Shown piece by piece: positions 10,928 through 50,964 of a stretch of 64,000 nt of DNA. Position numbers and translations under genes: made by a program. This stretch comes from a virus: positions 1-64,000 of the IMG/VR virus record IMGVR_UViG_3300035703_000041. One strand, given 5' to 3'. How positions within the stretch are numbered: position 1 is the first letter of the stretch; every line of letters starts with the position of its first letter. The notes under the pieces are model-generated. The model was not told the origin of the DNA. It did no database searches and saw only the letters and a list, made by a program, of their open reading frames with translations.

Positions 10928-11368
10928 ATGAACAAGGTAATTGTTTTTGACATCGATGGTACGCTGGCCAACATCGAGCACCGCAGGGGTTTTGTGGCTA
11001 GCAAGCCAAAGAACTTTAAGGCATTCGTTGCTGCAATCCCGCAGGATACGCCGCATGAGGAAATCGTGTTCCTCGCGCAGACGTTTGCTGCACTGGGCAA
11101 CCAGGTTATCCTGTGCTCGGGCCGTGGTGAGGAGGAGCGTGAAGTGACCGTTAAGCAGATGGAGGACTTTGGTGTGAAGTTCAACAAGCTGTTTATGCGT
11201 AGCGCAAAGGATTACAGGAAGGACTCGATCGTTAAGGTTGAGCTGCTTGCTCAGATCCGCGAGGAGTTTGGAACCCCCTATCTTTGGTTCGACGACAGGC
11301 AGCAGGTTGTTGACGCAATCCGTGCTGAGGGTGTGAAGGTTTGTCAGGTTGCGCCGGGGGACTTCTAA
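10928..11368 (+). CDS. Pnkp-like RNA/DNA 3'-phosphatase (HAD family)
   Basis: A 146-residue HAD hydrolase: DIDGT at residues 8-12 gives the D-x-D catalytic pair, CSGRGEE is motif II, and the C-terminal block DDRQQVVDAIRAEGVKV followed by QVAPGDF closely follows the end of T4 polynucleotide kinase (DDRTQVVE... QVASGDF). The T4 domain removes 3'-phosphates and opens 2',3'-cyclic phosphates so that broken tRNA can be ligated. Here it is a stand-alone gene; the kinase half is a separate gene at 20995. It has its own early promoter. Confidence 0.85.
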   Translation: MNKVIVFDIDGTLANIEHRRGFVASKPKNFKAFVAAIPQDTPHEEIVFLAQTFAALGNQVILCSGRGEEEREVTVKQMEDFGVKFNKLFMRSAKDYRKDSIVKVELLAQIREEFGTPYLWFDDRQQVVDAIRAEGVKVCQVAPGDF

Positions 11369-11604
11369 TGTCCCCTGTGCATACTGAAGTTAAAATTACC
11401 ACAAAAAATTTGGAAATGATTAGTATCCTTGATTGGTGCTGCACTACATTTGATGGGATGAAAAAGAAGAAGCGTGTTGCTAATTGTTTTACAAGCGGTA
11501 AAGGTTGGAGGAAAATATCTGGATCAGTGATTGGGGAAGGCGAACACACTTTTCAATTTGATAACGTAGAAGATGCGACATTATTTGCGTTGAGGTGGAC
11601 TTGA
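11368..11604 (+). CDS. LRW-family small paralogue 1
   Basis: A 78-residue protein. The start ATG 11368 overlaps the phosphatase stop (TAATG). It ends VEDATLFALRWT, the C-terminal signature shared with at least six other small proteins here (11606, 11890, 12126, 12482, 20765, 21428). The shared tail reads as a helix plus tryptophan-containing strand; the N-terminal halves differ. The function is unknown; the family recurs in T4-like phages. Confidence 0.65.
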   Translation: MSPVHTEVKITTKNLEMISILDWCCTTFDGMKKKKRVANCFTSGKGWRKISGSVIGEGEHTFQFDNVEDATLFALRWT

Positions 11605-11605
11605 C

Positions 11606-11893
11606 ATGTCTCCCCGCTACTTTATTGACTACGACGATAGCAGAGTTTTTGTTTCGTTTGACAAATTAGATCAGCAGATATTGAACCTTATCAAACACGT
11701 AAAAGAATGTTACAATATCCCAAGTCAAAATTTGGATTTGGTATCTTACACTGTAAAACAATTAGTAGAGAAAGAACATAATGCTGTCATTATTGGCGGC
11801 AATGTTATACGTATCGGCAAGGTAGGATTACAGTCTGCATTTGTTTTTGATACAATGTCTGATTTTACTATGTTTATGTTGAGATGGTCGTGA
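11606..11893 (+). CDS. LRW-family small paralogue 2
   Basis: A 95-residue protein starting two bases after the previous stop. It ends MSDFTMFMLRWS, a diverged form of the family tail in which Ala-Thr-Leu is replaced by Thr-Met. The middle has a VSFDKLDQQILNLIKHVKE helix. The last codons (TGG TCG TGA) overlap the next start, so translation is coupled. Function unknown. Confidence 0.65.
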   Translation: MSPRYFIDYDDSRVFVSFDKLDQQILNLIKHVKECYNIPSQNLDLVSYTVKQLVEKEHNAVIIGGNVIRIGKVGLQSAFVFDTMSDFTMFMLRWS

Positions 11894-12129
11894 GTTATTG
11901 CTTACCGGATAGATACAAAGATCCAAGTCAATTTGCAGAGTATCAACCATGGTTTAAAAAATCAATGGGTGATGTCCTAAAAATTACTAATATGAATGGA
12001 TTCGACGTTTACAAATTTTATGAAGCACAGTATAATGTGAAACTTTTCCGTAATTCGTTTGGTGTAATTGAGCAAGTTATCTTTCCTTCGGAAGAAGACG
12101 CATTGCTTTTCTTGTTGAGGTGGTCGTGA
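11890..12129 (+). CDS. LRW-family small paralogue 3
   Basis: A 79-residue protein. I choose GTG 11890, giving a GTGA overlap with the previous stop, over an in-frame ATG at 11884; the same GTGA junction recurs at the next gene. It ends EEDALLFLLRWS. The N-terminus has a Tyr/Trp-rich segment (FAEYQPWFKKSM). Unknown function. Confidence 0.6.
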   Translation: MSYCLPDRYKDPSQFAEYQPWFKKSMGDVLKITNMNGFDVYKFYEAQYNVKLFRNSFGVIEQVIFPSEEDALLFLLRWS

Positions 12130-12305
12130 GATATAAAATTATTGTCAAAAATGAAAATTTTATTGAAGCTGTTAAATGGGCAGAGCAACATTGCAGAGAA
12201 GATTATAACTTCAACCATTTACTTACCGAAAACGAGAAAGTAATGCTACGGTTTTATTTTAGGAAAAAATCAGACGCTACACTTTTTGCGCTACTGTGGA
12301 GTTAA
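12126..12305 (+). CDS. LRW-family small paralogue 4
   Basis: A 59-residue protein, the shortest of the array, starting at GTG 12126 with a GTGA overlap. It ends KSDATLFALLWS. It has one predicted helix (FIEAVKWAEQHC) and one strand (VMLRFYFR) before the tail, which may represent the minimal fold of the family. Function unknown. Confidence 0.6.
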   Translation: MRYKIIVKNENFIEAVKWAEQHCREDYNFNHLLTENEKVMLRFYFRKKSDATLFALLWS

Positions 12306-12308
12306 AAA

Positions 12309-12482
12309 ATGGAAGATCCAAATACCATTATTGAAAATGCTGTTGGTGAACTTTATCGCGGGTTTTACAAACTTCGCCAGTCCAAACAGTACCAAGAAGA
12401 ATATGATGCAATGGGCTCTTTGCTCAACATGCTAACACAGGATAGGGACTTCCTAAGGAAGAAACACAAAGTAAATCCATAA
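12309..12482 (+). CDS. Small helical protein inside LRW array
   Basis: A 57-residue ORF between two LRW paralogues but without the family tail. It starts three bases after the previous stop and its TAA overlaps the next ATG (TAATG). The sequence is helical and charged (IIENAVGELYRGFYKLRQSKQ). The tight packing supports it. Function unknown. Confidence 0.55.
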   Translation: MEDPNTIIENAVGELYRGFYKLRQSKQYQEEYDAMGSLLNMLTQDRDFLRKKHKVNP

Positions 12483-12691
12483 TGGCTAAAGTGACCATTC
12501 CATATAATATTATTGATCCAGCTCTAAAATGGGCAAAAGATAACTGTCCATCTTACATTACCAATAATGTGGTTCCTGTAAGCTTTGTTGAAGCAAATGA
12601 TTCTGACTATATATCAGTTCGTGTTATATTCCACTTTAGTGAAGAAAAGGATGCAACTCTGTTTGCTTTAAGATGGACCCAAAATGAGTGA
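12482..12691 (+). CDS. LRW-family small paralogue 5
   Basis: A 69-residue protein with the layout of paralogue 4: an early helix (IDPALKWAKDNC, compare FIEAVKWAEQHC), then strands (ISVRVIFHFS) and the tail EKDATLFALRW plus TQNE. The shared helix-strand-tail order is the clearest evidence that these genes arose by duplication. It overlaps the next start by 8 bases. Confidence 0.65.
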   Translation: MAKVTIPYNIIDPALKWAKDNCPSYITNNVVPVSFVEANDSDYISVRVIFHFSEEKDATLFALRWTQNE

Positions 12692-14978: not shown

Positions 14979-16013
14979 ATGCTACTCGTTGATTTATTTG
15001 AAGGTGGTTGGACCACTACTGTAACCCAAGGTACTGTTATTCGTCCCAGTACCGTTAAAAAAGCTCTAGCAATAATGGAAAAGTTTATTGCTGATTTTAA
15101 TGTTTATGCAAAACAAAATGATATCCCAACAGTTAAGATTGGACACCCAACAGGTAGCAGCGCATATCACGAAGTAGATCCAGAAGATAAAATTTACGGT
15201 GATATCGATTTACAAATTGTTGTTCCAGAATTAAAAGACAAACCAAATATGACTACTGGACAAATACAGTATTTTTGGAATAAGCAATTTGGAGAGTTTG
15301 TAAAAGCAACTAATCCAAATTATGTACATCCTGATTCAACACCTGGACATCCAATCCTAAATATTGGAGGTGATGCTTGGGTACAGATTGATATAATGCC
15401 ACACCCAGAACCACTTGCTACGTGGGGACGATATAGAGCAACACCAGAGCGCGGTGTAAAAGGAATGCTTAACGGAAATATGTTTGCTGTAATAGGCGAA
15501 ATGCTTATGCTTAACTTGCAACATTCCGGAGTGCAATATAAGGAGCAAAATAGTCGTCGTGTTCCATATGCTGCAACTAAAAAAGATTATGAATTAAAAA
15601 CTATTACTACAAATGTAGAAACATTTGTGCGTGATATATTTGATAACGAATATAAAGACATCACATATCGTGATCCAAAAAATGCTAAAATTGATCCATT
15701 GTTAATTAAGCATCCAGGTAGTGACCTTAAAGAAGTAAAAATCAGTAACCTTGTTAATGCTGTAAAAGGTATGGCACGTAGTTTTGAAATGAACAATATG
15801 TATGGTAAAGACATACTTACTCCATATTTGAATGCAGAAGACTTTTTAAACAAGTTTGTTGAGATCTATATGAAAAAAGCACAAGGTGCAATTGATGCAC
15901 CAAAACGCGATAAGGCAGAAACTCCAGAAGCTAAAGCAAGAGCAGAAGCAGATAAGAAGTCTATTGCTCAAGGTGCCAAGATGGTTCAACAATTATTTGC
16001 AAAGAATGATTAA
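14979..16013 (+). CDS. Capsid-targeted nucleotidyltransferase-like protein
   Basis: A 344-residue protein. The N-terminus MLLVDLFEG-G carries an L-x-E/G site like the peptides that target T4 internal proteins to the prohead and are cut by gp21 protease. Residues about 52-135 form a Pol-beta-type nucleotidyltransferase core: GSSAYHE, GDIDLQIVV and a third carboxylate in WVQIDIMP. The same core appears at the N-terminus of the giant protein at 36103. The C-terminus is a helical, charged tail. The start is set by the late promoter; there is no ribosome site. Virion delivery is inference. Confidence 0.6.
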   Translation: MLLVDLFEGGWTTTVTQGTVIRPSTVKKALAIMEKFIADFNVYAKQNDIPTVKIGHPTGSSAYHEVDPEDKIYGDIDLQIVVPELKDKPNMTTGQIQYFWNKQFGEFVKATNPNYVHPDSTPGHPILNIGGDAWVQIDIMPHPEPLATWGRYRATPERGVKGMLNGNMFAVIGEMLMLNLQHSGVQYKEQNSRRVPYAATKKDYELKTITTNVETFVRDIFDNEYKDITYRDPKNAKIDPLLIKHPGSDLKEVKISNLVNAVKGMARSFEMNNMYGKDILTPYLNAEDFLNKFVEIYMKKAQGAIDAPKRDKAETPEAKARAEADKKSIAQGAKMVQQLFAKND

Positions 16014-16597: not shown

Positions 16598-17803
16598 ATG
16601 AAGTACGATTTTCCTGTAATTACGCACATTAACGAAGTGCTACCTGCAATTGCAGGACGCGACGAATTTATTGTCGCGCAGAAGGATGGGTACCAGGTTG
16701 TAAATTACGCCGTTATGATGGAGGACTCTTTCCCGCCCGTTTTTACTGCTGGCGGGTCCGCTGCTATGCGTGAGGAAGCTACCCTGCACAAGTCCATTTT
16801 GCGCGAGTGCCGTGGGCTTGTTTTTGACCTTGAGGGCAACCTAATCAATCGCCGTTATCACAAGTTCTTTAACGTAAATGAGCGTGATGAAACTCGCTTT
16901 GAAAAGATTGACTTTAGCAAGCCGCATGTGATCCTCGACAAGCTTGATGGGTCCATGGTGTCTCCTTGCATGGTAAACGGCCATGTTCGTTGGATGACGA
17001 AGATGGGCATTACTGATACGTCCTTGCAGGCAGAGCTCCACACTGTGCGTAACCGCATTTACCGTGAAATGGCTGAGTGGGAACTTAGCCGTGGATGGAC
17101 GCCTGTGTTTGAGTGGGTAAGCCGCGCTAGCCGTATTGTTCTTGATTATCCCGAGGATTCTCTCGTCCTTACTGCTATGCGCGAAACTGCAACCGGTCGT
17201 TATATGTTGTATAAGGACATGGTTGAACTTGGATATTACTATGATATCCCTGTTGTTAAGGCTTACGATTACCGTGCCGAAAACATCTTGGAAATCGTGC
17301 GCGAGCTCGAAGGTGCTGAAGGCGTAGTGATCCGTTTTGACGATGGGCATATGCTCAAGGTCAAGGCTGATTGGTACGTGTTGCGTCACAAGTCCAAGGA
17401 TGCAATCACACGCGAAAAGAACGTGCTTGATTATGTTGTCAACGACCGTGTTGACGATGTGCTTCCGTTCTTGCAGGTTGAGGATCAGGAGCGTTTGCTC
17501 AAGTTCCAGGACAAGTTTTGGGAAGGGTTTAAGGAGTCGCTTGCGGCTTATGAAGACCATTATCAGAACGTAGTTGCTGCTGGTGTTGACCGCAAGCAGT
17601 ATGCGTTGGAATGGAAACCGGTAATTGAAAAGACTTTTCCGTTTGCTCCGCAGTATGTTTTTGGTCGTATGTCTGGTCGTGATGGCCGTGACATGTTGCT
17701 TGATTACGTAGGCAAGAACATTGGAACTAAGTCTAAGATTGATGCTGTACGTAATGTTTGGGGTGGGACCGAATGGTCCTACTCTTTTGAAGGAGATGTG
17801 TAA
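16598..17803 (+). CDS. rnlA: T4 Rnl1-type RNA ligase
   Basis: A 401-residue ATP-dependent RNA ligase. Motif I is K115-LDGS (DKLDGSM), preceded by the Rnl1 hallmark RECRGLVFD and RRYHKFFNVNE; motif IV is EGVVIRF from residue 241 and motif V is LKVKADWYV shortly after. T4 Rnl1 seals tRNA cut in the anticodon loop by host anticodon nucleases. The length (T4 enzyme 374) is normal. It has a strong promoter and AGGGGAA site, and lies in the same region as the end-healing enzymes. Codons are GC-rich with AAG lysines. Confidence 0.92.
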   Translation: MKYDFPVITHINEVLPAIAGRDEFIVAQKDGYQVVNYAVMMEDSFPPVFTAGGSAAMREEATLHKSILRECRGLVFDLEGNLINRRYHKFFNVNERDETRFEKIDFSKPHVILDKLDGSMVSPCMVNGHVRWMTKMGITDTSLQAELHTVRNRIYREMAEWELSRGWTPVFEWVSRASRIVLDYPEDSLVLTAMRETATGRYMLYKDMVELGYYYDIPVVKAYDYRAENILEIVRELEGAEGVVIRFDDGHMLKVKADWYVLRHKSKDAITREKNVLDYVVNDRVDDVLPFLQVEDQERLLKFQDKFWEGFKESLAAYEDHYQNVVAAGVDRKQYALEWKPVIEKTFPFAPQYVFGRMSGRDGRDMLLDYVGKNIGTKSKIDAVRNVWGGTEWSYSFEGDV

Positions 17804-20995: not shown

Positions 20996-21450
20996 TGGCT
21001 ACAATATACATGCTTGTGGGAGTTCCCGGTTCGGGCAAAACTACGTGGATTAAGAATAATAAGCACAATGCTGTTGTTCTAAGCACCGACGATTATATCG
21101 AAAAGGTTGCCGCTAAACAGGGCAAGACTTATAGCGAAGCATTCAAAGACGTTATTGGCGATGCTACAGATCAAATGGAAAAAGATCTTATCCAAGCTGT
21201 GCGTAACGAGCGCGACATCATTTGGGATCAAACAAATCTTACTGCTAAGACTCGTAAGAGCAAATTAAGTCGTATTCCAAAAAGTTATAAGAAGGTTGGG
21301 GTATACTTTTCTGTACCGCACGACTTGCGTGATCGTTTAGCAAGTCGTCCAGGAAAAACTATTCCAGAACCTGTTGTGCTGAGTATGATTAACCAACTTC
21401 AACCTCCATCAAAAGAGGAAGGATTTGATGAGATCGTCCACGCAAGCTGA
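20995..21450 (+). CDS. Pnkp-like polynucleotide 5'-kinase
   Basis: A 151-residue P-loop kinase. GVPGSGKTTW occupies residues 9-18 and STDDY residues 30-34, matching the kinase half of T4 Pnkp (GCPGSGKSTW, NRDDY), where the Asp is the general base for 5'-OH phosphorylation. DQTNLTAKTR is the lid/Walker B-like strand (T4: DTNLNPERR). The T4 protein fuses kinase and phosphatase; here the halves are separate genes about 9.6 kb apart. ATG 20995 overlaps the previous stop. Confidence 0.85.
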   Translation: MATIYMLVGVPGSGKTTWIKNNKHNAVVLSTDDYIEKVAAKQGKTYSEAFKDVIGDATDQMEKDLIQAVRNERDIIWDQTNLTAKTRKSKLSRIPKSYKKVGVYFSVPHDLRDRLASRPGKTIPEPVVLSMINQLQPPSKEEGFDEIVHAS

Positions 21451-21703
21451 TTGGTTGCCCGTAAGCGAATACATGAGTTACGTAGGTGAACTACAAAGAA
21501 AAAGTGGTGAACCATATAATTGGAGTTATTATCTACCTAAAAGTGGCTATTACTCTGTTTTACTCCGCGATCCATTACAGTGGAGTAACGCACATGCTTG
21601 GGCAACCGATACTGCTGGTCTTGGTTATTATTGTTGGGCTGGTAGCGTTTTTTATTTTAATAGAGAAAGCGATGCACTTCTATTTGCACTACAATTTGGA
21701 TAA
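21428..21703 (+). CDS. LRW-family small paralogue 7
   Basis: A 91-residue protein ending ESDALLFALQFG, a diverged family tail (Arg-Trp replaced by Gln-Phe). The body is Tyr/Trp/Ser-rich (YNWSYYLPKSGYYSVLL). It overlaps the kinase gene; ATG 21428 is preferred to TTG 21425. Function unknown. Confidence 0.55.
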   Translation: MRSSTQADWLPVSEYMSYVGELQRKSGEPYNWSYYLPKSGYYSVLLRDPLQWSNAHAWATDTAGLGYYCWAGSVFYFNRESDALLFALQFG

Positions 21704-36068: not shown

Positions 36069-36076
36069 AATAAATA
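36069..36076 (+). promoter_or_regulatory. Late promoter AATAAATA
   Basis: A late box 26 bases before the ATG of the giant gene at 36103; the predicted leader is about 21 bases with no clear ribosome site. Confidence 0.65.
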
Positions 36077-36102
36077 GTCTATATACATTAATGGGCTATT
36101 AA

Positions 36103-39100
36103 ATGATCAATAAAACAATACTAAATGAGGGCGGCAATGTTGAAATAGATGGCATTGCTGCCCAACGTCTTGATTTAAACAAAGTTTCTCGCAGTGCTGT
36201 AGTTGCTGAAATAGATAAAGCACTACAAATTATTAACAGCACATTTAATAAAGCATACGGAGTTCCTTTATGGAGCCCAGAATTAATAAAAAACAAAGAG
36301 TTTTTAAGTGGTAGTGCGTTTCACTTCTTTAACGTAAAAATACCAGATGATCAATTCACTAAAGTTAAGTCTAGCGTTGGTGACATCGACACTATGGTTG
36401 ATAAAGATTTAGCACAAAAAGCAAGTGACTTTTTAACTAAAGCAAAAGGCAAGCAGTTTGGACCAGCAAAGTTAGTTGGCTTTAAACCTAACCCAGGAAT
36501 GGATACACTTATTAGTTTGTGGCAATTCAACAATCCACCTGTGAATGTACAAATAGATATGGAACTTGTCGACTACGATAAAGGTAGTCCAACAGAGTGG
36601 AGCAAGTTTAGCCACAGTAGCGCATGGGAAGATTTAAGTGTTGGTGTTAAAGGCGTATTCCACAAGTATCTATTGCGTTCGCTAACACATAAAGATGCTA
36701 AAGATCGCTACATTCAAATGAAAACAAAGCTTAAAAAAGTTACAGCAGCGGATTTAGCGTTTGCTGTTTCAGGTGGCGTGCGTAATAAGTTTGAACCAGT
36801 AATTGATCCAAAAACTAAAAAAACAGCAGTAGCACCAGACGGACTTCCAATATACAAGGAAGTGCCAGCAAGTGAAAGCAAGTATGTAACAGACATTAAA
36901 GGTATGTTTACACTTTTAATTGGACGCAAACCAGTTAAAGGTGAAGAAAAATTATTGGGTAGTTTTGTTGGCGTACTATCTTTAATCAACAAATATTTTA
37001 GCAATGAAGATAAAGATAAAATCACAAGTGCATTTATGGCATTAATATTTGGCCCTGCTGCTCAACAACTATACAAAGGTGATCCAGCAACAGATAAAAG
37101 AGAAAAAGAAATTGCTCTTAACAAAATGTTGGAAATTTTAAAAGTTAATGTTGATAAAGCAAGTTTAGCAAAAACTGTTGCAGATTATTATTCTAAGTAT
37201 AAAGCTGAATCAATTACAGAAGCAGATGCACCAGACTATAAGCGTCAAGGCATCAAGCACATTTATAATCCTGGCTCAACTGTTGAAATGAAAGATGTTG
37301 ACTTCTTAGCATTTATTGATGCAATTGCTAAGAATGGTGGCACACTTGATAACATACCAATTACACTTAAAGTAGATGGTGCAGGTATACGCTTTGGACG
37401 AGATCAAAGTGATAAACCATTTTTTATGACTAGTCGTGTTACAAATCCAATTTACGCTGATAACGTTGGTATGTTTGAAAAGTACGCTAGAGATAATAAT
37501 GGCAATGAAGAACAAATTGCTCGTGCTGAAAAGTATGATCAAGCATTAAGTTTAATTGTTAACAGCGACTTTATTAAAGTATTACCAAAAGACACAATTG
37601 TCCAAGCAGAAATGATGTACAATCCAATGGCTGAAAAGACAAGTGCTGGACTTAAGTTTGTAAACATCCCATATGATCCAAAGTTACTTGGTAAACAAAT
37701 GACGCTTGTGCCAATTGTCGCAAGTACATATTCAACTGGCGAAGCATTACCAAACACAATTCTTCAAAAAGTAATAAGCAAGTCTACTCCTCAAATTAAA
37801 ATACTTGGTACTGAGTTACAGCATAGCGATATTGATGTAAAAAATATTGTTGAACCAATTGCTAAGATGGATGATACGCTTCGTGCTGCGTTAGCAAGTA
37901 GGAAGAAAAATGATCCAGCAAAAGCAAAAGCAAAAGAAATACTAACAACAGCACGCAAGGCAATTAGTGATGCAATCATTAATAGCCCTAACATTAAAGG
38001 TAAAGATAAGCTAGGTAAGACTATTGAAGGTTTAGTTATTGCTATGCCAAATGGTCAACTTGCTAAAGTTACCAGTAGCGAAATGAAAGGTGCAATGGCT
38101 GCAAAAGCTATTAAGAAAGCACCAACAACAGGCAGCAATAGAACTAAAGCTGCTATTGTTACTGCTGGTAGCTTTGTTGGCCACATAGGTCATCAAAAAG
38201 TTGTTGATACTGTTATTAACTTTGCTAAAAAAGTTGGCGGTGACCCGTACATTTACATTAGCAGTAAAGTGGGACCAGATGATCCTATTCCACCAGAAGT
38301 AAAATTAGCTACTTGGAAGAAAATGTATCCAGAGTATGCAAAAAGTTTCCAACTAATTGTAAGCCCAGATGGTGTAACTGTTCCAAGTCCAGTTAAAAAG
38401 ATTGAAAAAGAATTAGTACTACCAGCAAACAGTCCTTACAAAAAGATTGTATTAATGGTTGGTACTGATCGTTATGAAGGTTTCAAGAAGTGGATGGATA
38501 CTCTTGAAAAGCGTATGAAGGATCCAGTAGCATTAGCAAAATATGGTGGAACACAAGATCAAGTTGATTACGAAACTATTGCTATACCACGCGGCGCAGC
38601 ATTAGGTGGTATTGATGCAAGCTTCACACAACTACGCAATACATTAAAAGATCCTAATCTTTCACTAAAAGAAAAGTTAGCTGTTTGGTCAAAAGGATTT
38701 GGTGGAAAGCTAGACGAAGATTGGATCAAAAAGTTAATGATGCTTTCTGCTCAAGGCATGGGAATTAAGTTAGGAGAAGCTAAATCACCATGGGATAAAA
38801 TGGTTAGAGCTGTTCCCAAACTAAAAGGACATGAAGATAGAGTTAACGATATATTAAAAGCAATTAAGCAAGCAAATGCAGAATATCAAGCAATACTTGA
38901 TAAAGAAAAAAATCCATTAAAAGAAGATGATGATCTAAATGTCCGTTTCCATGATACATTAAATCCAGCACTATTTAGAAATAACAAGATGAGTCCTATC
39001 GTAAGAGAAAAGCTGCTAAAAATAGCAGAGGACTTTAAGGATAGTTTAGGTGTTAAGTTACCAAATCTAAAAGACATTACTGTAAGTGGCAGTAATGCTG

Positions 39101-42100
39101 CATTCACTTATACACCAAAAAGTGATATTGATCTACACTTAGTTGTTGATTTACCTGAAGCAGATGGCGATGCTACTTATAGGGAATTGTTTGATGCTAA
39201 GAAGTTCCAATACAACGAGCAGCATGACTACAAGATTAAAGAATACGATGTAGAACTTTATGTGCAAAATGCAAATGATGAACATGTAAGTCAAGGTATC
39301 TACAGTGTAATGAATGATGCTTGGATTAAAGAACCACAACCAGTAAGTGGCGAGTACGATGAAGACAGCACACGCGCCAAATATGATCAAATAAAGTATC
39401 TCATACAAAAAGCATTAACTGTAAGAGATTATGCTTTAGCAGACAAGCTACGTCGAACTATTAAAAAGTATCGTCAAGTTGGGTTACATTCAACTGGTGA
39501 GTTTGGTCCTGAAAATCTTGCATTCAAAGCATTGCGTGCTAATGGCTACATTAAGAAACTGTATGAGTTATTAAATGATATTAAGGACAAAGAGTTTAGT
39601 TTAGAGAGTAACGATCAACGATTACTTGAAATTGATATGAGTCCAGGAGCACTCAAAAAGTTCTCAACTACTGAGATTGCAAAGTCAACTAGTGTTGGTT
39701 TTGAGTTTGAAATGATCGTACCTAACATGATAGATGACGGCAGTGAAAGTGAACCAGATTACGATTATGATGAATATGTAACAGATTCAACTGTTACTGC
39801 TATGCAAGATGATTTAATTAGATTCTTTAGAGATACTGAAACAAGTACAGCAATTAAACGAGCAGTTGAAGAAGTATCAGATGAAATAAATGATTTTATT
39901 TTAATGGAGTTTGATGGTGAATTAGATTCTGTAGATCAGCAGAGACGATTAAGAGAATTGTATAAAGCAGATACTTCACTCGAAGATGATGAAATAGAAA
40001 AGAGCATTGAAGATCAAGATAGCACTTATGACGAAGTATTAAGTTCTTTGAGAGATGAGTATATGGAAGACTGGGACAATCTAAGTGGATTCTTAGAATA
40101 TAACAGTCTTGAAATGATGTCTGAATGGGCTAGTAGATTTAATTGGGAATGGCCACACTACACTGAAGCTGGCAGCGATGAAGTCGACGAACAAGCAATG
40201 CGTGAAGTAGCAGATGAAATCAAAAACGCTGTTAGTATGTCAGTTAGGTCTTCTCCTAATTATCATGCATTTAAGAAAAATAGAGAATCTGGTGTTTGGT
40301 ATTTAGAAACTGATAGTTCAATTAATGCTGATGAAAGTTCTGGTGAAGGTGGACTAGAATTAGTAAGTCCTCCATTGCCACTTGAGCAAGCATTAGAAAA
40401 GTTAGATGCAGTTCTAAATTGGATGCAGAGATACGGCGCATATACTGATAGTTCAACTGGGTTCCATATGGGTGTAAGCATTCCGCAAATGGAAAATGTT
40501 GACTACATTAAGTTAATATTATTCCTAGGTGACAAATATGTATTAGATCAATTTGGTCGTTTAGGCAATTCATACACCCGCAGCGCACTAGATAAGATGG
40601 AAGTACAAAATGTTCCATATGTTATGAAAAACATGCCAACTGTATTTGATGCTCTAAAAGGTGGATTAAACAAAGCAGCATTAAAAATGCTTGAATCAGC
40701 TCTTGTACCTCGAGGAGACAAATATACTAGCGTAAACATTAAGGGCAGCACAACACCTAGTGGAGACATCAAGGATAATTACATTGAATTCCGTAGTGCT
40801 GGTGGAGATTACTTAGAAGCGATTGAAAAGATTAAAAATACACTATTGCGTTATGTTCGTGTAATGGCGCTTGCTGCTGATCCAAATGAAGCAAAGGAAG
40901 AGTATGCTAAGAAACTCTACAAGATGCTATACAATGCTCAAAGCAATAAAAATGAAGATAATGTAGTTAGATTGTTTAGTATGTTTGCTAGCGGCAATAT
41001 TTCAAAAGCAGAACTTGTAATGAAGCTTAAGGCAAAACAAGAATTAAGATTGGCAAAGAAAAGAGGCCCAATTGATTACGCAGTCTTAGATAGGAATAGC
41101 GATCCTATTACTATAGTTAAAGCAATTAACAATAGCGAAGCTTTAACAAAAGGAATAGAATGGGAAAGAAGCAACCCAGTATCTGGCGGTGTGAGAGGTG
41201 TAAGATTAGCGACACTAGACGATATAAAAGCTGTAGCTAATAGAAATACTGAAGGACAATGGCAACGTTGGAATGTTTATGGACACGAAGGACAAATCTT
41301 TACTAGTGTTTCAGCTCGCAATCGTCAAGAAGCAAGTCAACTTGCACTACGCTGGGGAAGAGAAAACGATAGTGTTATTTCTCATGTTACTCCTGAATCT
41401 GAGGATGAATTTGCAGCACTACATAGAACAGAATCAAAAGAAGTTGTAACTGAACTTGCTAACAAGCCATACCCTTTTAAAACACAAGGCAATAAAAAGC
41501 ATTTTCAAGCTCGTTTCGTAACAGACAACAAACTAGTGTATAATGTTATGATTTTGGTCCCTCTTGAAGATTTTGAACCAAATAAAGCAGAAATAGAATT
41601 TTTCTCTGAAAATGAAGATGTTTTAAGAGGACATAAAATAACTGGAACTGGTGATTCTTTTAAAGTATTTGCGACTGTGTTAGAAATAATAAAAGCTTAT
41701 CTAACAAAGCACAAAACAATCAACGAATTTGAATTTGGTGCTAACAAAAGTGAACCGTCCCGTGTAAAGTTGTATGACACTATGGCAAAAATGTTACCAA
41801 AATATATTAATAATTTCAAATTTTTCAATAAGTATCCAAATAACTATAACGGATTCGCGTACCATTTTGTAAAAGTCAAAAAACCAACTACAGTAAAAGA
41901 AAATGAATTTGTAACTGAACTTGCTAATAAACCATATGAATATGATTTAGAAAGCGATAGCAGAGTTCTTCGTGCTACCTTTAAAACAGATGCTGGTCAA
42001 CCTTATAGAATTTATATCGTAAAAGAGAAAGACGAAGAAGGGGAAGTAAAATATATCTCTGTTGAGTTCTCTGCTCTTAAATATGTAGATGGTCGATTCT

Positions 42101-42510
42101 TAACTACACAAGCTAAAACCGGAACAGGTGACGCATTTAGAATATTTGCAACAGTTGGTGCAGTACTAAAACGCTATTTGGATGAAAATCCAGAAATTAC
42201 TAGATTTGAATTCTCTGGTGATAAGGATGAACCAAGTCGAATAAAGCTATATGACACTATGGCTAAAATGTTGCCTAAGTTTATTCCACAATTCAAACTA
42301 ATTGAAATTGAAAAAGGATTTATGTTTAATCATTATCAATTTTCAAAAGTAAGTAATGAATCAAAAAATCCAAGTTCATTGAAAGAATATATTGAAGTAT
42401 CTTACAAACCTTTTATTCGAGAAAAGAAAGAAGAACCAAAAAAAGAGTTAACAGACATGCAAAAAGCGTGTATACTAGGCGGACAAGAATATACAGGTGA
42501 GATAAACTAA
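36103..42510 (+). CDS. Giant multi-domain virion enzyme (nucleotidyltransferases + amidoligase)
   Basis: A 2,135-residue protein. The N-terminus MINKTILNE-G carries an L-x-E/G site like T4 prohead-targeting peptides. Domains read in order: Pol-beta-type nucleotidyltransferase (GS at 70, GDID 93-96, QID 150-152); ligase-type adenylation domain (K423-VDG, E642-GLVI, K655); HIGH cytidylyltransferase-like (GSFVGHIGH 689-697, S-x-T-x-x-R 840-845); a second Pol-beta-type fold (SGSN 995-998, SDID 1007-1010); an amidoligase-like ATP-grasp domain (EFE 1201-1203, ETDSS near 1402, GLELVSPP, GFHMG near 1453); and two tandem copies of a ~140-residue domain (from about 1783 and 1940). I infer a packaged enzyme; it has no T4 counterpart I know. 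No frameshift is seen. Confidence 0.7.
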   Translation: MINKTILNEGGNVEIDGIAAQRLDLNKVSRSAVVAEIDKALQIINSTFNKAYGVPLWSPELIKNKEFLSGSAFHFFNVKIPDDQFTKVKSSVGDIDTMVDKDLAQKASDFLTKAKGKQFGPAKLVGFKPNPGMDTLISLWQFNNPPVNVQIDMELVDYDKGSPTEWSKFSHSSAWEDLSVGVKGVFHKYLLRSLTHKDAKDRYIQMKTKLKKVTAADLAFAVSGGVRNKFEPVIDPKTKKTAVAPDGLPIYKEVPASESKYVTDIKGMFTLLIGRKPVKGEEKLLGSFVGVLSLINKYFSNEDKDKITSAFMALIFGPAAQQLYKGDPATDKREKEIALNKMLEILKVNVDKASLAKTVADYYSKYKAESITEADAPDYKRQGIKHIYNPGSTVEMKDVDFLAFIDAIAKNGGTLDNIPITLKVDGAGIRFGRDQSDKPFFMTSRVTNPIYADNVGMFEKYARDNNGNEEQIARAEKYDQALSLIVNSDFIKVLPKDTIVQAEMMYNPMAEKTSAGLKFVNIPYDPKLLGKQMTLVPIVASTYSTGEALPNTILQKVISKSTPQIKILGTELQHSDIDVKNIVEPIAKMDDTLRAALASRKKNDPAKAKAKEILTTARKAISDAIINSPNIKGKDKLGKTIEGLVIAMPNGQLAKVTSSEMKGAMAAKAIKKAPTTGSNRTKAAIVTAGSFVGHIGHQKVVDTVINFAKKVGGDPYIYISSKVGPDDPIPPEVKLATWKKMYPEYAKSFQLIVSPDGVTVPSPVKKIEKELVLPANSPYKKIVLMVGTDRYEGFKKWMDTLEKRMKDPVALAKYGGTQDQVDYETIAIPRGAALGGIDASFTQLRNTLKDPNLSLKEKLAVWSKGFGGKLDEDWIKKLMMLSAQGMGIKLGEAKSPWDKMVRAVPKLKGHEDRVNDILKAIKQANAEYQAILDKEKNPLKEDDDLNVRFHDTLNPALFRNNKMSPIVREKLLKIAEDFKDSLGVKLPNLKDITVSGSNAAFTYTPKSDIDLHLVVDLPEADGDATYRELFDAKKFQYNEQHDYKIKEYDVELYVQNANDEHVSQGIYSVMNDAWIKEPQPVSGEYDEDSTRAKYDQIKYLIQKALTVRDYALADKLRRTIKKYRQVGLHSTGEFGPENLAFKALRANGYIKKLYELLNDIKDKEFSLESNDQRLLEIDMSPGALKKFSTTEIAKSTSVGFEFEMIVPNMIDDGSESEPDYDYDEYVTDSTVTAMQDDLIRFFRDTETSTAIKRAVEEVSDEINDFILMEFDGELDSVDQQRRLRELYKADTSLEDDEIEKSIEDQDSTYDEVLSSLRDEYMEDWDNLSGFLEYNSLEMMSEWASRFNWEWPHYTEAGSDEVDEQAMREVADEIKNAVSMSVRSSPNYHAFKKNRESGVWYLETDSSINADESSGEGGLELVSPPLPLEQALEKLDAVLNWMQRYGAYTDSSTGFHMGVSIPQMENVDYIKLILFLGDKYVLDQFGRLGNSYTRSALDKMEVQNVPYVMKNMPTVFDALKGGLNKAALKMLESALVPRGDKYTSVNIKGSTTPSGDIKDNYIEFRSAGGDYLEAIEKIKNTLLRYVRVMALAADPNEAKEEYAKKLYKMLYNAQSNKNEDNVVRLFSMFASGNISKAELVMKLKAKQELRLAKKRGPIDYAVLDRNSDPITIVKAINNSEALTKGIEWERSNPVSGGVRGVRLATLDDIKAVANRNTEGQWQRWNVYGHEGQIFTSVSARNRQEASQLALRWGRENDSVISHVTPESEDEFAALHRTESKEVVTELANKPYPFKTQGNKKHFQARFVTDNKLVYNVMILVPLEDFEPNKAEIEFFSENEDVLRGHKITGTGDSFKVFATVLEIIKAYLTKHKTINEFEFGANKSEPSRVKLYDTMAKMLPKYINNFKFFNKYPNNYNGFAYHFVKVKKPTTVKENEFVTELANKPYEYDLESDSRVLRATFKTDAGQPYRIYIVKEKDEEGEVKYISVEFSALKYVDGRFLTTQAKTGTGDAFRIFATVGAVLKRYLDENPEITRFEFSGDKDEPSRIKLYDTMAKMLPKFIPQFKLIEIEKGFMFNHYQFSKVSNESKNPSSLKEYIEVSYKPFIREKKEEPKKELTDMQKACILGGQEYTGEIN
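41452..42350 (+). repeat. Tandem domain duplication in giant protein
   Basis: Two ~140-residue copies share TELANKPY at the start, TGTGD-x-F-x-x-FATV in the middle and EPSR(V/I)KLYDTMAKMLPK near the end. The copies differ widely between these blocks, so this is an old protein-level duplication, not a DNA repeat. Confidence 0.75.
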
Positions 42511-47129: not shown

Positions 47130-47558
47130 ATGTCACGCGGATTAATGAAAAAGTATATAGATATACTAATGGAAGCTTTAAGCTATTCCAGCTTGCAAGA
47201 TGCAGGAGATGATTATAGTCCTGGCAATACTCAAATTTGGTATTGGAGAGAAGATCTTGGACGCGATATGATGATGGGATATGATTTCCTTAAAAAGCAA
47301 AACAAGCTTCCGGATCCAGCAAATTTATCAGCTACACATGTACTAATTGGTAGCATTGCTGAAACTAATTTAGATAAAATTTATTCAATGATGCAATCAG
47401 AAAGTTGGAGCCCACAGGGTGAAGCTAGAGATTTAATTAATAAAAGCGGGGCTGGTCATACAAGTATGAGTGTTGGTGATATTATTGTAATTAATAATGA
47501 TGCATCTATGGTTGATAAAGTTGGGTTCGTAAACCTAGCAACAGGGGAAGAAATATAA
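47130..47558 (+). CDS. Head-targeted virion protein, unknown
   Basis: A 142-residue protein. The stretch MKKYIDILME-A is nearly superimposable on the T4 internal-protein targeting peptide MKTYQEFIAE-A, including Met-Lys-x-Tyr and the cleaved Glu-Ala at the same position; translation may begin at ATG 47130 or at that methionine (47145). The remaining domain has LPDPANLSATHVLIG and a Gly/Ser-rich region but no catalytic motif. Start overlaps next gene by one base. Confidence 0.65.
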   Translation: MSRGLMKKYIDILMEALSYSSLQDAGDDYSPGNTQIWYWREDLGRDMMMGYDFLKKQNKLPDPANLSATHVLIGSIAETNLDKIYSMMQSESWSPQGEARDLINKSGAGHTSMSVGDIIVINNDASMVDKVGFVNLATGEEI

Positions 47559-48934
47559 TGTTACTTGAAAGTTTATTAAAAGAGTTTGATGAAGCAGTAA
47601 ACAAACCTAAATTTACTGGTTATTGGAAAGCTCAAGATAAAGCACCTCCAGGCAAGAAAATGGTTGGTGAAGAAGAAAAAACTACAGAAGCATCAACTTT
47701 GGATACTGACATTGAATATGAACCAAGTGTAGATCAAGAGTTTGATAAGAAAGAGCTTGCAGCATTGTTAACTCAAAAATTAACAGGACTAGCACCAAAA
47801 GAAGAACGAGCAATTAGATTAAAAATATTTTATGATTATACTTATGATCAAATTGGTGAAAAATTTGGGGTATCTGGTGATAGAGCAAGAGACATCTTTA
47901 TGAAGGGAATTAGAAAATTGAGGCACCCTTCTCGCGCGAGAGAAATTAGACCTTTCCTTGAGGATGAAAATCCAACAGATAAAATTACAATGGATATACC
48001 ACTATTTTTACGTATGATGGAATATGCTAAAGAAGATGCAAAAACAGATATGGACTTGCATCAAGTAACTGCTCGCGCAATAGAATTAATGCAACAACAT
48101 GACTACCTATGTATGGATAATTATGATACTATCATAAACAATAGCGAACCTATAGATGAAGGTTGGTTAGATAAAGTTTACTCTGCTGGTCGTAACTTTG
48201 CTGATACTGCCACTCTAGGTGGTTACAAGTATGCACGAGCTGGTGCTGATTACGCTGCTAAGAACATTGGCAATAAATTAGGGTTCGATGTGAAACCTAC
48301 CACATATCAAAAAGAACTTGATCAGGAAGTTGAAAAACTTAACAAAGATTGGGAAAAGGAACCAGGTGCAAGTCTAGCTGGCATGGGTGGAGCAATGGCT
48401 TTACCTCTAGCCGGTCAATACGGCGCTGCTGTTAAAGGCGCACAGGGGTTAGGTGGTCAAGCATTAGATGCTTACGGTAAGTTTGTTAAAACATATCCAT
48501 TGGCTAAAAAAGCTTTAGGTTTAGAAAACAAAGATGAAGATATAGATGAAGAGAAAAAAGGTCTTTACTATTATGTAAACAAGCGTAAAAAGGCTGGCAC
48601 AAGCAGACCAGCTAGTCATCCAAAAGCACCAAGCGAACAAGATTGGAAGAACGCTGCTAAGACTGCAAAGAAAGAAAGTGTGGGCGAAGCGGGTCAATTT
48701 TCATATGGAGCTAAAACTCCACGCAAAGGCACAGTTGCTTACAACGCAGCACAAAAGCGTAAAGAAGATGAAAAAAGACAAAAACCAATTGAGCCAAAAG
48801 ATCAAATGGTCGGTGTTGCTAAGGTAACAAAAGAAGGCAAGGAAAAAGGCGCTGATGGCAAAGCTTGCTGGCCAGGTTATCGTTATGCTGGCACAGAGAA
48901 CGGCAAAGACAAGTGTGTGAAAGTTAAGAAGTAA
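47558..48934 (+). CDS. Virion protein with sigma-70 region 4 domain
   Basis: A 458-residue protein. Residues 67-136 follow sigma-70 region 4: a helix pair, then AIRLKIFYDYTYDQIGEKFG and the recognition-helix GVSGDRARDIFMKGIRKLRHPSR, ending RPFLED. In sigma factors this domain reads the -35 hexamer. Residues 140-195 form a second helical domain (MDIPLFLRMMEYAKEDAKTD). The middle is Gly/Ala-rich with a possible membrane-active segment (~275-310); the C-terminus has modules GLYYYVNKRKKAGTSRP and GKACWPGYRYAG. The N-terminus MLLESLLKEFDEA resembles but does not exactly match the head-targeting site. Confidence 0.65.
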   Translation: MLLESLLKEFDEAVNKPKFTGYWKAQDKAPPGKKMVGEEEKTTEASTLDTDIEYEPSVDQEFDKKELAALLTQKLTGLAPKEERAIRLKIFYDYTYDQIGEKFGVSGDRARDIFMKGIRKLRHPSRAREIRPFLEDENPTDKITMDIPLFLRMMEYAKEDAKTDMDLHQVTARAIELMQQHDYLCMDNYDTIINNSEPIDEGWLDKVYSAGRNFADTATLGGYKYARAGADYAAKNIGNKLGFDVKPTTYQKELDQEVEKLNKDWEKEPGASLAGMGGAMALPLAGQYGAAVKGAQGLGGQALDAYGKFVKTYPLAKKALGLENKDEDIDEEKKGLYYYVNKRKKAGTSRPASHPKAPSEQDWKNAAKTAKKESVGEAGQFSYGAKTPRKGTVAYNAAQKRKEDEKRQKPIEPKDQMVGVAKVTKEGKEKGADGKACWPGYRYAGTENGKDKCVKVKK

Positions 48935-50539
48935 ATGTTAATTAAAGATTTGCTACAAGGATCTACGCATGTTAATGAGGATGCTATATCAGATCTTGCC
49001 AGTAAATTAAAGAGTACTAAAGCAACAAGTTATGATAATATCGATGCAATTATGCAAAAGATAGCAAAAGACAATAATATAACAGCTAAAGAATTACACG
49101 ACATTTGGGTAAAAAAGTACGGTGAAAAACCAGATGATTGGATTAAAGATCAACTTAATGAAGCATTAACCGCTAAAGATACAGTTGAACGTTGGATTGC
49201 TGTTTTTAAAAGTAGTAAGCATCCAAAGTTTGCAGGTAAAACTCCTGAGCAGCGTGAGAAGATGGCAAGAGCTGCACAATATCGTGCAGTTCATAATAAA
49301 AAAATTAATGAAGCAAAAGTAACACTATATACTGATCCATCATACTATGGTGCTGAAGTTGCAGACAATGCTGGCGAAGGTATACCCGTACAAGAAATAC
49401 CATTAGACAATTTAGTTGGGTTTGAACCTGACGTTAAAATGCAGGACAAAAAGAGTGCAGCCAATATGTCTAAAATGGTTGACCTATTGAAAGCAGGCAA
49501 GGGCAAAGAACTACCACCAATACTAGTACGCAAGTATAAAAATGGTTATCAAGTATTAGATGGACATCATAGATTCCATGCTTACAAGAAAGCTGGAATA
49601 AAAACTATTCCAGCTAAACTTGTTCCTGATGAAGATATCAAAGTTGTTGATAAAATTGAAGAAGGTCCAGTTTGGGATAAAGTAAAGAATACTGCACTTG
49701 CTGGAACAATGGCAGGTGCGCTAGGGTATGGTGCGCTAACAGGGCAGTTACGTGACGAACCAAGGCAAGTGCCAGTTGACAAACCTCCTTTAGAAATTAC
49801 TATACCAGGTGGTCAAGCAGAACCTGAAGTTAAAAAAGAACCAGAAAAACTATCACCAAGTACCGCTACAAACGCAAACAAAGAAATGGAAAAACTCGTG
49901 CTAACTGTTGCTTATCGCTCTGGGATAAGAGGTCAAGAGTTGGCACAATTCATGGGACAAGTTGCTCATGAGACACTAGGATTTCAACGTTTAGTAGAAG
50001 TTGGTAGCGCAGAATACTTTAATAGATATGATCCAGAACATAGTCCTAAAAAAGCAAAGATACTTGGTAATGTTAATCCTGGTGACGGCATACGTTATAA
50101 AGGTCGCGGGTTTATACAAATAACTGGGCGTGACAACTATAAGCGTGCTGGGAAAGCACTAGGGATTGATTTAGAAAATAACCCAAAGTGGGCAAGCAGT
50201 CCTAAAATTGCTGCTAAGATCGCTGTATGGTATTGGAAAAGTAGAGTAAAACCAGCAGTGGATGACTATACTGATACTATTGGTGTTACTTCAAAAATTA
50301 ATCCTAGTATGAATGGTCTTGGTGATAGAGACATGAACTTTCATCATTATTTAGAAAAGCTTAATTTAAATGAAAATTTTGCTGATGGAAAGAAACCAGG
50401 ACGCAAGGGATTAGCCAAAAGAGTTGGTGTTAATTGTAAACAAAGCGTGACAAAGTTAAGAAAAATTGCTAGTAATAGTAGTGGTGAAAAACAGCGTATG
50501 GCACATTGGTGTGCAAATATGAAAGGCGGCAAAAAATGA
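48935..50539 (+). CDS. ParB-like / GH19 lysozyme virion protein
   Basis: A 534-residue protein. N-terminus MLIKDLLQ-G resembles the head-targeting start (Gln instead of Glu). Residues ~150-225 are a ParB/sulfiredoxin-like domain (LPPILVRKYKNGYQVLDGHHRFHAYKKAG: catalytic-type G-H-H-R). Residues ~325-475 match GH19 chitinase/lysozymes: VAHETLGF with a Glu near 346, and GRGFIQITGRDNYKRAG near 390. The C-terminus has a KPGRKGLAKRVG module seen in other phage virion proteins. A role as a peptidoglycan-cutting enzyme during DNA entry is inferred. Confidence 0.72.
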   Translation: MLIKDLLQGSTHVNEDAISDLASKLKSTKATSYDNIDAIMQKIAKDNNITAKELHDIWVKKYGEKPDDWIKDQLNEALTAKDTVERWIAVFKSSKHPKFAGKTPEQREKMARAAQYRAVHNKKINEAKVTLYTDPSYYGAEVADNAGEGIPVQEIPLDNLVGFEPDVKMQDKKSAANMSKMVDLLKAGKGKELPPILVRKYKNGYQVLDGHHRFHAYKKAGIKTIPAKLVPDEDIKVVDKIEEGPVWDKVKNTALAGTMAGALGYGALTGQLRDEPRQVPVDKPPLEITIPGGQAEPEVKKEPEKLSPSTATNANKEMEKLVLTVAYRSGIRGQELAQFMGQVAHETLGFQRLVEVGSAEYFNRYDPEHSPKKAKILGNVNPGDGIRYKGRGFIQITGRDNYKRAGKALGIDLENNPKWASSPKIAAKIAVWYWKSRVKPAVDDYTDTIGVTSKINPSMNGLGDRDMNFHHYLEKLNLNENFADGKKPGRKGLAKRVGVNCKQSVTKLRKIASNSSGEKQRMAHWCANMKGGKK

Positions 50540-50964
50540 GGCAGTGGATTAATTTGTTTGAAGACATTAATGATGAATGGTTCAGTAACGGCGGTTTCCA
50601 AGCATGGAAACAACCAGTCCCAGTAAAGTATACTACAGCAGCAGACTCAGGCACTATTCAAACACTTGAAGGTCCAGTAGCATATGGTGCTGGATTTAAA
50701 ATTATTACTGGACCAAAAGGTGAACAGTATCCAGTTCCTCCACAAAAGTTTGCAGAACTATATGATGATAATGAAGATGGTACTGCTACACCAAAGAAGA
50801 TTGTTAAGACCGCTAAAGTAGCAGATCACAACGGCGCTGTTAAGACAAGCTGGGGCGAGACGCTAAACTATACTGCAGGTGAGGATGTGATTGTACGACA
50901 TGGACCAGGCGATTATGGTGTAGTTAAGAAAGATATTTTCGCTAAAACTTATACAACTTCTTAA
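50536..50964 (+). CDS. PGDYG-domain virion protein
   Basis: A 142-residue protein starting ATG 50536, overlapping the previous stop. It contains two related halves: residues ~45-75 (GAGFKIITGPKGEQYPVPPQKFAELY) and the C-terminal RHGPGDYGVVKKDIFAKTY with the PGDYG motif. N-terminus MRQWINLFED is amphipathic like its neighbours, with Glu-Asp in place of Glu-Gly. A packaged or structural role is inferred; function unknown. Confidence 0.6.
   Translation: MRQWINLFEDINDEWFSNGGFQAWKQPVPVKYTTAADSGTIQTLEGPVAYGAGFKIITGPKGEQYPVPPQKFAELYDDNEDGTATPKKIVKTAKVADHNGAVKTSWGETLNYTAGEDVIVRHGPGDYGVVKKDIFAKTYTTS

Follow-up and report, generated by a model that had tools for sequence, protein, structure and literature searches.

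We analysed a 64,000-nucleotide stretch of viral DNA, referred to here as the window (positions 1–64,000 of IMG/VR record IMGVR_UViG_3300035703_000041), whose source is a 95,224-base record (G000), a fragment of a myovirus genome that encodes a phage DNA polymerase together with head and packaging genes. A real open reading frame (ORF) at 36103–42510 (+), with an ATG start, encodes a protein of 2,135 residues, which has two end-to-end relatives (L001 and L002; identity up to 83%). We consider it highly probable that this protein is a polyprotein of enzymes which a T4-like myovirus loads into its capsid by means of one leader and which the head protease then cuts; both the packaging and the cutting are deduced from sequence. 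From its N- to its C-terminus it contains a first Pol-beta-type nucleotidyltransferase (NTase1), a ligase-like domain, a HIGH nucleotidyltransferase, a second Pol-beta-type enzyme (NTase2), an Amidoligase_2 domain, an unassigned stretch and two DUF6934 repeats, and it therefore has the at least two disparate catalytic domains per chain that characterize polyvalent proteins. An earlier sequence-only reading had listed the five enzyme domains, and all of its motifs are present where it placed them within 36103–42510. It missed the C-terminal DUF6934 repeats, the leader with its LxE/GGN site (a slash marks a proposed cut throughout), the LxE junction sites, and the fact that other phages encode the same modules in separate genes that lie side by side.

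Leader and junction sites

A scan of viral contigs for NTase1 relatives found 154, from which 80 loci were kept, 61 of them distinct. The relatives are not independent samples, so that the percentages given here are not probabilities. In all 61 distinct NTase1 relatives, [LIV]-x-E stands directly before G[GS]N, P3 being mostly L or I and in a few cases V; the background for a looser [LIVMFY]xE is 1.8% per residue. The site is preceded by 9–22 residues in most relatives, and by 124–509 residues in five, where a further module has been joined on upstream (in L071 and L081, a zincin). L070 was considered as an exception lacking the site and was rejected, because a longer read gives FVLE/GGN and the first GGN was a start-codon artefact.

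In T4, gp21 cleaves at L/I-x-E, and a leader of 10 residues targets the internal proteins (PMC9026906). T4-type internal head proteins are recognized by a short targeting peptide at the N-terminus with L/I-x-E at its end, and the window protein begins in this way, with MINKTILNE/GGN. The proposed capsid-targeting sequence MINKTILNE, which ends in L-N-E before G, occupies residues 1–9 (36103–36129; this and all other features of the gene are on the + strand), and the predicted local distance difference test score (pLDDT) is < 50 at residues 1–11. Other leaders read MQLFDLIRNKKPLLE/GGN in L004 and MKLSELILILE/GGN in Campylobacter phage CP21, while MKTFKEYLVE/GGN and similar leaders of relatives resemble MKTYQEFIAE/A of T4 IPIII when compared with the T4 records. 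NTase1 is also encoded by Campylobacter phage IBB_35. In Xanthomonas phage X1, Stenotrophomonas phage Mendera and Vibrio phage pv27, NTase1 is encoded alone by a leaderless gene that starts with Met-GGN, and an identical mature N-terminus is thus reached in two ways. This suggests, as a hypothesis, that a free N-terminus matters to NTase1, the mature GGN being conserved whether head-protease cleavage or loss of Met would give rise to it.

Similar sites recur between modules. The proposed site between NTase1 and the ligase-like domain, SITE/ADAP (P1 = E373; 37219–37221), falls in a segment with pLDDT < 50 (residues 368–375), and a strict [LIV]xE[AGSD] site is present in this linker in 40 of 43 fused proteins, against an expectation of 4.3 derived from stretches of equal length in these proteins. 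No strict site of this form was found in the ligase–HIGH linker of 39 proteins, which indicates that the sites mark particular joints and not any flexible linker. After HIGH, the proposed site KLGE/AKSP (P1 = E892; 38776–38778) adjoins a segment with pLDDT < 50 (residues 893–895), and 28 of 37 relatives have a site there, with 7.1 expected. Before the amidoligase, the proposed site is LLE/IDMSP (P1 = E1176; 39628–39630). A search that left P3 free showed that all 49 distinct amidoligase relatives have [LI]-x-E immediately ahead of xxM[SNTG], both at gene starts (after 12–20 residues; for example, MKYLELKEQLLNE/INMSP) and internally (up to residue 1290).

An AlphaFold2 model of residues 1–916, for which 56 relatives were included in the input, has a pLDDT of 87.8. 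Its low-confidence stretches are residues 1–11, 368–375, 674–676, 834–836, 893–895 and 901–916, and among the modelled residues all three strict [LIV]xE[AGS] sites lie in disordered segments (P = 0.004).

Fused and split genes are equivalent in this family. Where the modules are split, the ligase gene carries a leader of its own (for example, MKSFKEYLKE/DV), and modules C-terminal to HIGH swap freely among relatives. In several relatives a leader-like sequence lies inside the chain downstream of HIGH, as in L072 (ALGE/MRLFNALMSPKKIVNE/K); judged by sequence, it looks as if neighbouring cargo genes had fused.

We propose that the precursor would be made late in infection and that its nine-residue leader would target it to the prohead core, where a gp21-type prohead protease would, during head maturation, cut the chain after L/I/V-x-E, both behind the leader and at the junctions between modules. 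The products would be NTase1 with a free Gly-Gly-Asn, a bifunctional RNA-ligase-like/HIGH nucleotidyltransferase, NTase2, the amidoligase, and two DUF6934 proteins that are probably GNAT-like; among these approximately six products, the ligase-like and HIGH domains alone seem to remain joined. The freed enzymes would stay in the head with the DNA and enter the host with it, as T4 Alt and the internal proteins (IPs) do, and an enzyme toolkit can thus probably enter the host cell along with viral DNA. We suggest, only tentatively, that NTase1, the ligase-like domain and HIGH might act there within the first minutes of infection, either transferring nucleotidyl groups to RNA ends or repairing such ends, or nucleotidylating host targets.

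Modules of the proposed polyprotein

Fold identities were assigned by Foldseek searches of AlphaFold2 models against the PDB. For the first three motif sets the folds are those expected, as judged by matches of NTase1 to DNA Pol mu, of the ligase-like domain to RNA and DNA ligases, and of HIGH to nicotinic acid mononucleotide (NaMN) adenylyltransferase and FAD synthetase.

NTase1 (residues 10–373; 36130–37221) is supported by alignments, by phrog_19290 and by the presence of DNA Pol mu among its Foldseek matches (probability 0.99); it has no Pfam match. Its motifs, GS70-71, GDID93-96 (GDxD) and a third acidic site, QxDxE150-154, are invariant in 56 relatives.

The ligase-like covalent nucleotidyltransferase domain (approximately residues 380–672; 37240–38118) has K423-VDG, E503, E642-G and K655. 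Motifs I (KxDG), III (E) and IV (EG) of ligases are present, their K, D, G, E and EG being invariant in the alignment, and Foldseek matches include an archaeal RNA ligase (5d1o), T4 Rnl2 and DNA ligase I. Motif V has one lysine (KVT) and not two, and there was no Pfam ligase match; for these reasons we call the domain ligase-like and do not name it as a ligase family member. A complete homologue of T4 RNA ligase 1 (RNA_lig_T4_1, 4e-27) is encoded in the same phage at window positions 16598–17803 (+), and the ligase-like domain of the polyprotein therefore probably does another job.

The HIGH-motif nucleotidyltransferase domain (approximately residues 680–892; 38140–38778) contains GHIGH and SFTQLR, and thus has the HxGH and [ST]xTxxR motifs of the HIGH type, within an NMNAT-like fold. 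It matches the cytidyltransferase family phrog_3041 (5e-14), and FAD_syn matches the domain in 16 of 56 relatives.

NTase2 (approximately residues 955–1170; 38965–39612) has the motifs SGSN...SDIDLH...VELY. Its match to NTP_transf_2 (PF01909; 8e-4) reaches 20.1 bits, with a gathering cut-off of 21; the assignment is supported by these motifs, by alignment and by phrog_36119 (7e-39). The Amidoligase_2 domain (approximately residues 1177–1640; 39631–41022) matches PF12224 at residues 1366–1462 (4.2e-12; 46.9 bits, above the Pfam cut-off of 22) and has 179 viral relatives.

The unassigned segment that follows (residues 1641–1784; 41023–41454) matched no Pfam or PHROG family. It ends in VVTE/LANK, a site kept only in the close relative L002, and pLDDT is < 50 at residues 1770–1795. 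DUF6934 repeats 1 (residues 1785–1939; 41455–41919) and 2 (residues 1940–2095; 41920–42387; beginning TE/LANKPY) were recognized by PF22028 and by alignment of the repeats. A model of the C-terminal region (pLDDT 72, middling at the repeats) gave Foldseek matches to AAC(6′)-Ib and SpeG with probability 1.00, the aligned residues not being reported; by size and strand–helix order, these GNAT matches most likely correspond to the DUF6934 repeats, each of which is probably GNAT-like. A DUF6934 scan matched only the two close relatives, and the C-terminal 356 residues had no match in a search of the phage collection. The C-terminal tail (residues 2096–2135; 42388–42507) has no predicted structure, with pLDDT < 50 over most of residues 2086–2135.

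Head protease, virion proteins and alternative readings

A gp21-type protease is encoded by G005, a genome that carries a relative of the 2,135-residue protein, and by X1, CP21, pv27 and Mendera. Overall, the protease is present in 10 of 24 contigs with relatives, including nine of the 11 of approximately 200 kb or more. The N-termini of gp23 in four protease-bearing phages carry LGE/S, LAE/S, LNE/A and VNE/G. Within G000, matches to PF07068 (gp23) were considered as the capsid gene and rejected, since they are short fragments, one of them with stops. Short ORFs that resemble one gp23 helix lie outside the window at G000:81478–81618 and 87448–87654; they may be a gene fragment, a chance resemblance or a decoy.

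A sequence resembling a T4 late promoter, AATAAATAG (36069–36077, +), stands approximately 26 nt upstream of the start codon of the 2,135-residue ORF, and ATAAATA occurs within 90 nt upstream in 8 of 61 relatives, compared with 1.95% of random 90-mers. Mass spectrometry (MS) of Synechococcus phage S-CREM2 virions detected gp154 (three peptides), gp155 (five), gp156 (six) and gp160 (seven) (PMC10665884). S-CREM2 gp154, which starts MKNFSSFLTE/A, gave a match to the HIGH domain of the 2,135-residue protein, and gp156 is a stand-alone homologue of NTase2 (34%, 4e-35). The suggestion in the sequence-only reading that the protein is virion-associated and T4 Alt-like thus gains support from the leader and LxE sites, from the virion homologues of two modules and from the late-promoter-like sequence.

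Several observations weigh against a packaged and cleaved precursor. Neither gp21 nor a credible gp23 was detected in the 95-kb record, which is a fragment, and the leader is absent from several relatives. E1784 and E1939, the proposed sites before the C-terminal repeats, have Leu at P1′ and are supported by close relatives only. Loose [LIV]xE is weakly tied to disorder in the 2,135-residue protein (7 of 22; P = 0.05), LxE is found also inside folded domains, and E1939 and E1176 lie just outside low-confidence segments. The virion MS support comes from homologues only, and the authors of the S-CREM2 study themselves caution about co-purification and contamination of virion preparations (PMC10665884).

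The last point also bears on an alternative that we regard as unlikely, namely that the protein is a cytoplasmic, unpackaged multi-enzyme that serves RNA repair or nucleotide or cofactor metabolism during infection, its leader having another purpose. Pol-beta NTases do occur paired with RNA ligases in the RNA repair systems of phages (RlaP), the X1, Mendera and pv27 versions are leaderless and in X1 and Mendera lie near replication genes, and the S-CREM2 detections could be contamination. However, every relative with a leader has one that is similar to the capsid-targeting sequence of T4 and terminates in the gp21 motif, a late-promoter-like sequence precedes the gene, and homologues of two modules were found in virions.

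We give still less credence to the proposal of the sequence-only reading that one uncleaved multifunctional virion enzyme acts as a single chain, a T4 Alt-like weapon. All domains do lie within one ORF, and T4 Alt is itself a single packaged enzyme (PMC9026906), but this reading sits poorly with junction sites that are conserved in position and sequence, with the same modules being separate genes, their order kept, in other phages, and with the free swapping of modules after HIGH. The comparative data instead favour a precursor cut into approximately six products. Release by the polyprotein's own or a neighbouring zincin metallopeptidase and not by the head protease, after the model of Iyer et al. 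(2017), is very improbable, for although many relatives have an HExxH zincin within the same chain and autoproteolysis has been proposed for polyvalent proteins, no zincin-like peptidase was found in the 2,135-residue protein by family or profile matches, and the sites conform to the L/I-x-E rule of gp21 and also stand at the ends of short leaders at gene starts that lack a zincin.

Returning to the cleaved precursor, we lean towards the wider view that T4-like phages of many environments load enzyme sets as cleavable polyproteins, a single leader and a single protease serving many cargoes; that the gain and loss of modules occur through fusion, at L/I-x-E sites, of adjacent genes that have leaders; and that the E/GGN cut exposes a Gly-Gly-Asn needed by NTase1. 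If this is true, it would provide a DNA-phage counterpart of RNA-virus polyproteins, driven by a capsid protease, and it suggests a simple evolutionary route in which neighbouring cargo genes fuse and the cut site is kept. The sequence rule of a leader and L/I-x-E directly before a module should reveal head cargo among the unknown genes of T4-like phages, locate the start of each mature enzyme and expose fused genes that are in fact several proteins. It picks out the conserved NTase–ligase–HIGH trio and the amidoligase as probable parts of the head cargo, and makes it testable which enzymes arrive in the host ahead of any phage gene expression.

Other candidate cargo and comparison with known systems

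Downstream ORFs with similar leaders (47130–50964, +) probably encode further packaged cargo, as judged by leader sequences and family matches; they include a YodL-like protein at 47130 (MKKYIDILME/A), a ParB_N and GH19 endolysin protein at 48935 with several xxE/[AGDN] junctions, and an ORF at 50506 (MRQWINLFE/D). Leaders are borne by 167 of 723 neighbours of NTase1 loci (23%, against a background of 7.8%). When every gene start in G000 and G005 is counted, [LIV]xE[AGSD] is only weakly enriched (0.0044–0.0049 versus 0.0034–0.0035 per residue), from which we conclude that the leader belongs to a subset of genes.

A second polyprotein-like gene, at window positions 48935–50539 (+), encodes a ParB-like (ParB_N) DGHHR domain, a GH19 endolysin and a C-terminal module, with junction sites HVNE/D, QLNE/A, KINE/A, KIEE/G and NLNE/N. 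Its C-terminal module (NFADGK...AHWCANMKGGKK) also ends unrelated proteins in L117 and L071. A stand-alone Pol-beta-type NTase of 344 residues at 14979–16013 (+), with TGSSAYHE...YGDIDLQIV...VQIDIMP, has its own leader and site (MLLVDLFE/GGW), again with a GG N-terminus; no relative was found in the phage collection. Long ORFs at L004:13436–16129 and L117:4609–9486 have 'QGVAE[AG]' or 'xxAE/G' repeated between segments; this motif is probably a cut site of the same kind, used repeatedly. Small ORFs that are probably paralogous and share a '..(A)TLFALRW[ST]'-like tail form runs at window positions 11341–12691 and 21425–21703 and at 85.5–87.8 kb of G000.

When the literature was searched for polyproteins of T4-like phages that are cut by gp21, only the polyvalent-protein paper and papers on T4 and SPN3US heads came up, and neither the T4 nor the polyvalent-protein papers found describe several enzymes behind one leader that are parted by a head protease at L/I-x-E. 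RlaP–RNA ligase repair systems of jumbo phages (PMC7824862) also place a Pol-beta NTase beside an RNA-ligase-fold enzyme; here, however, NTase1 appears to be of another Pol-beta family, HIGH is added, and motif V has a single lysine. The virion 'cytidylyltransferase' gp154 of cyanophage S-CREM2 has a homologous HIGH domain and a leader and is found in virions, but it stands alone, joined neither to NTase1 nor to an amidoligase; similar folds exist in cyanophages S-PM2 and P-HM2. The gene row of X1 and Mendera has NTase1, ligase-like and cytidyltransferase genes in the same order, but these are separate, with the leaderless M-GGN start and an extra gene between NTase1 and ligase. The product of that extra gene (L009:9008–10012 and L012:6908–7852) looks PD-(D/E)xK-nuclease-like, as judged by eye.

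Polyvalent proteins (Iyer et al., 2017; PMC5512222) also combine several unrelated catalytic domains in a chain and are thought to be injected, and zincin and ParB-like modules occur in the relatives described here, with a YodL-like one in the neighbourhood. A zincin-like peptidase, which some relatives of the window protein have, is the commonest polyvalent-protein domain, and not an obligatory one. Release by an embedded peptidase was proposed for those proteins (PMC5512222), whereas here it would be by the head protease at L/I-x-E. The Pol-beta NTases of polyvalent proteins are minimal, mainly Firmicute forms, and the word amidoligase is absent from that paper (PMC5512222). T4 IPI–III and Alt share with the present system the short leader pattern, the L/I-x-E cleavage motif and a gp21-type protease, here in related genomes. 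T4 Alt is an ADP-ribosyltransferase, whereas the enzymes here are NTases, a ligase-like domain and an amidoligase; and where T4 has one protein per gene, up to six or more modules here follow a single leader, with internal sites between them.

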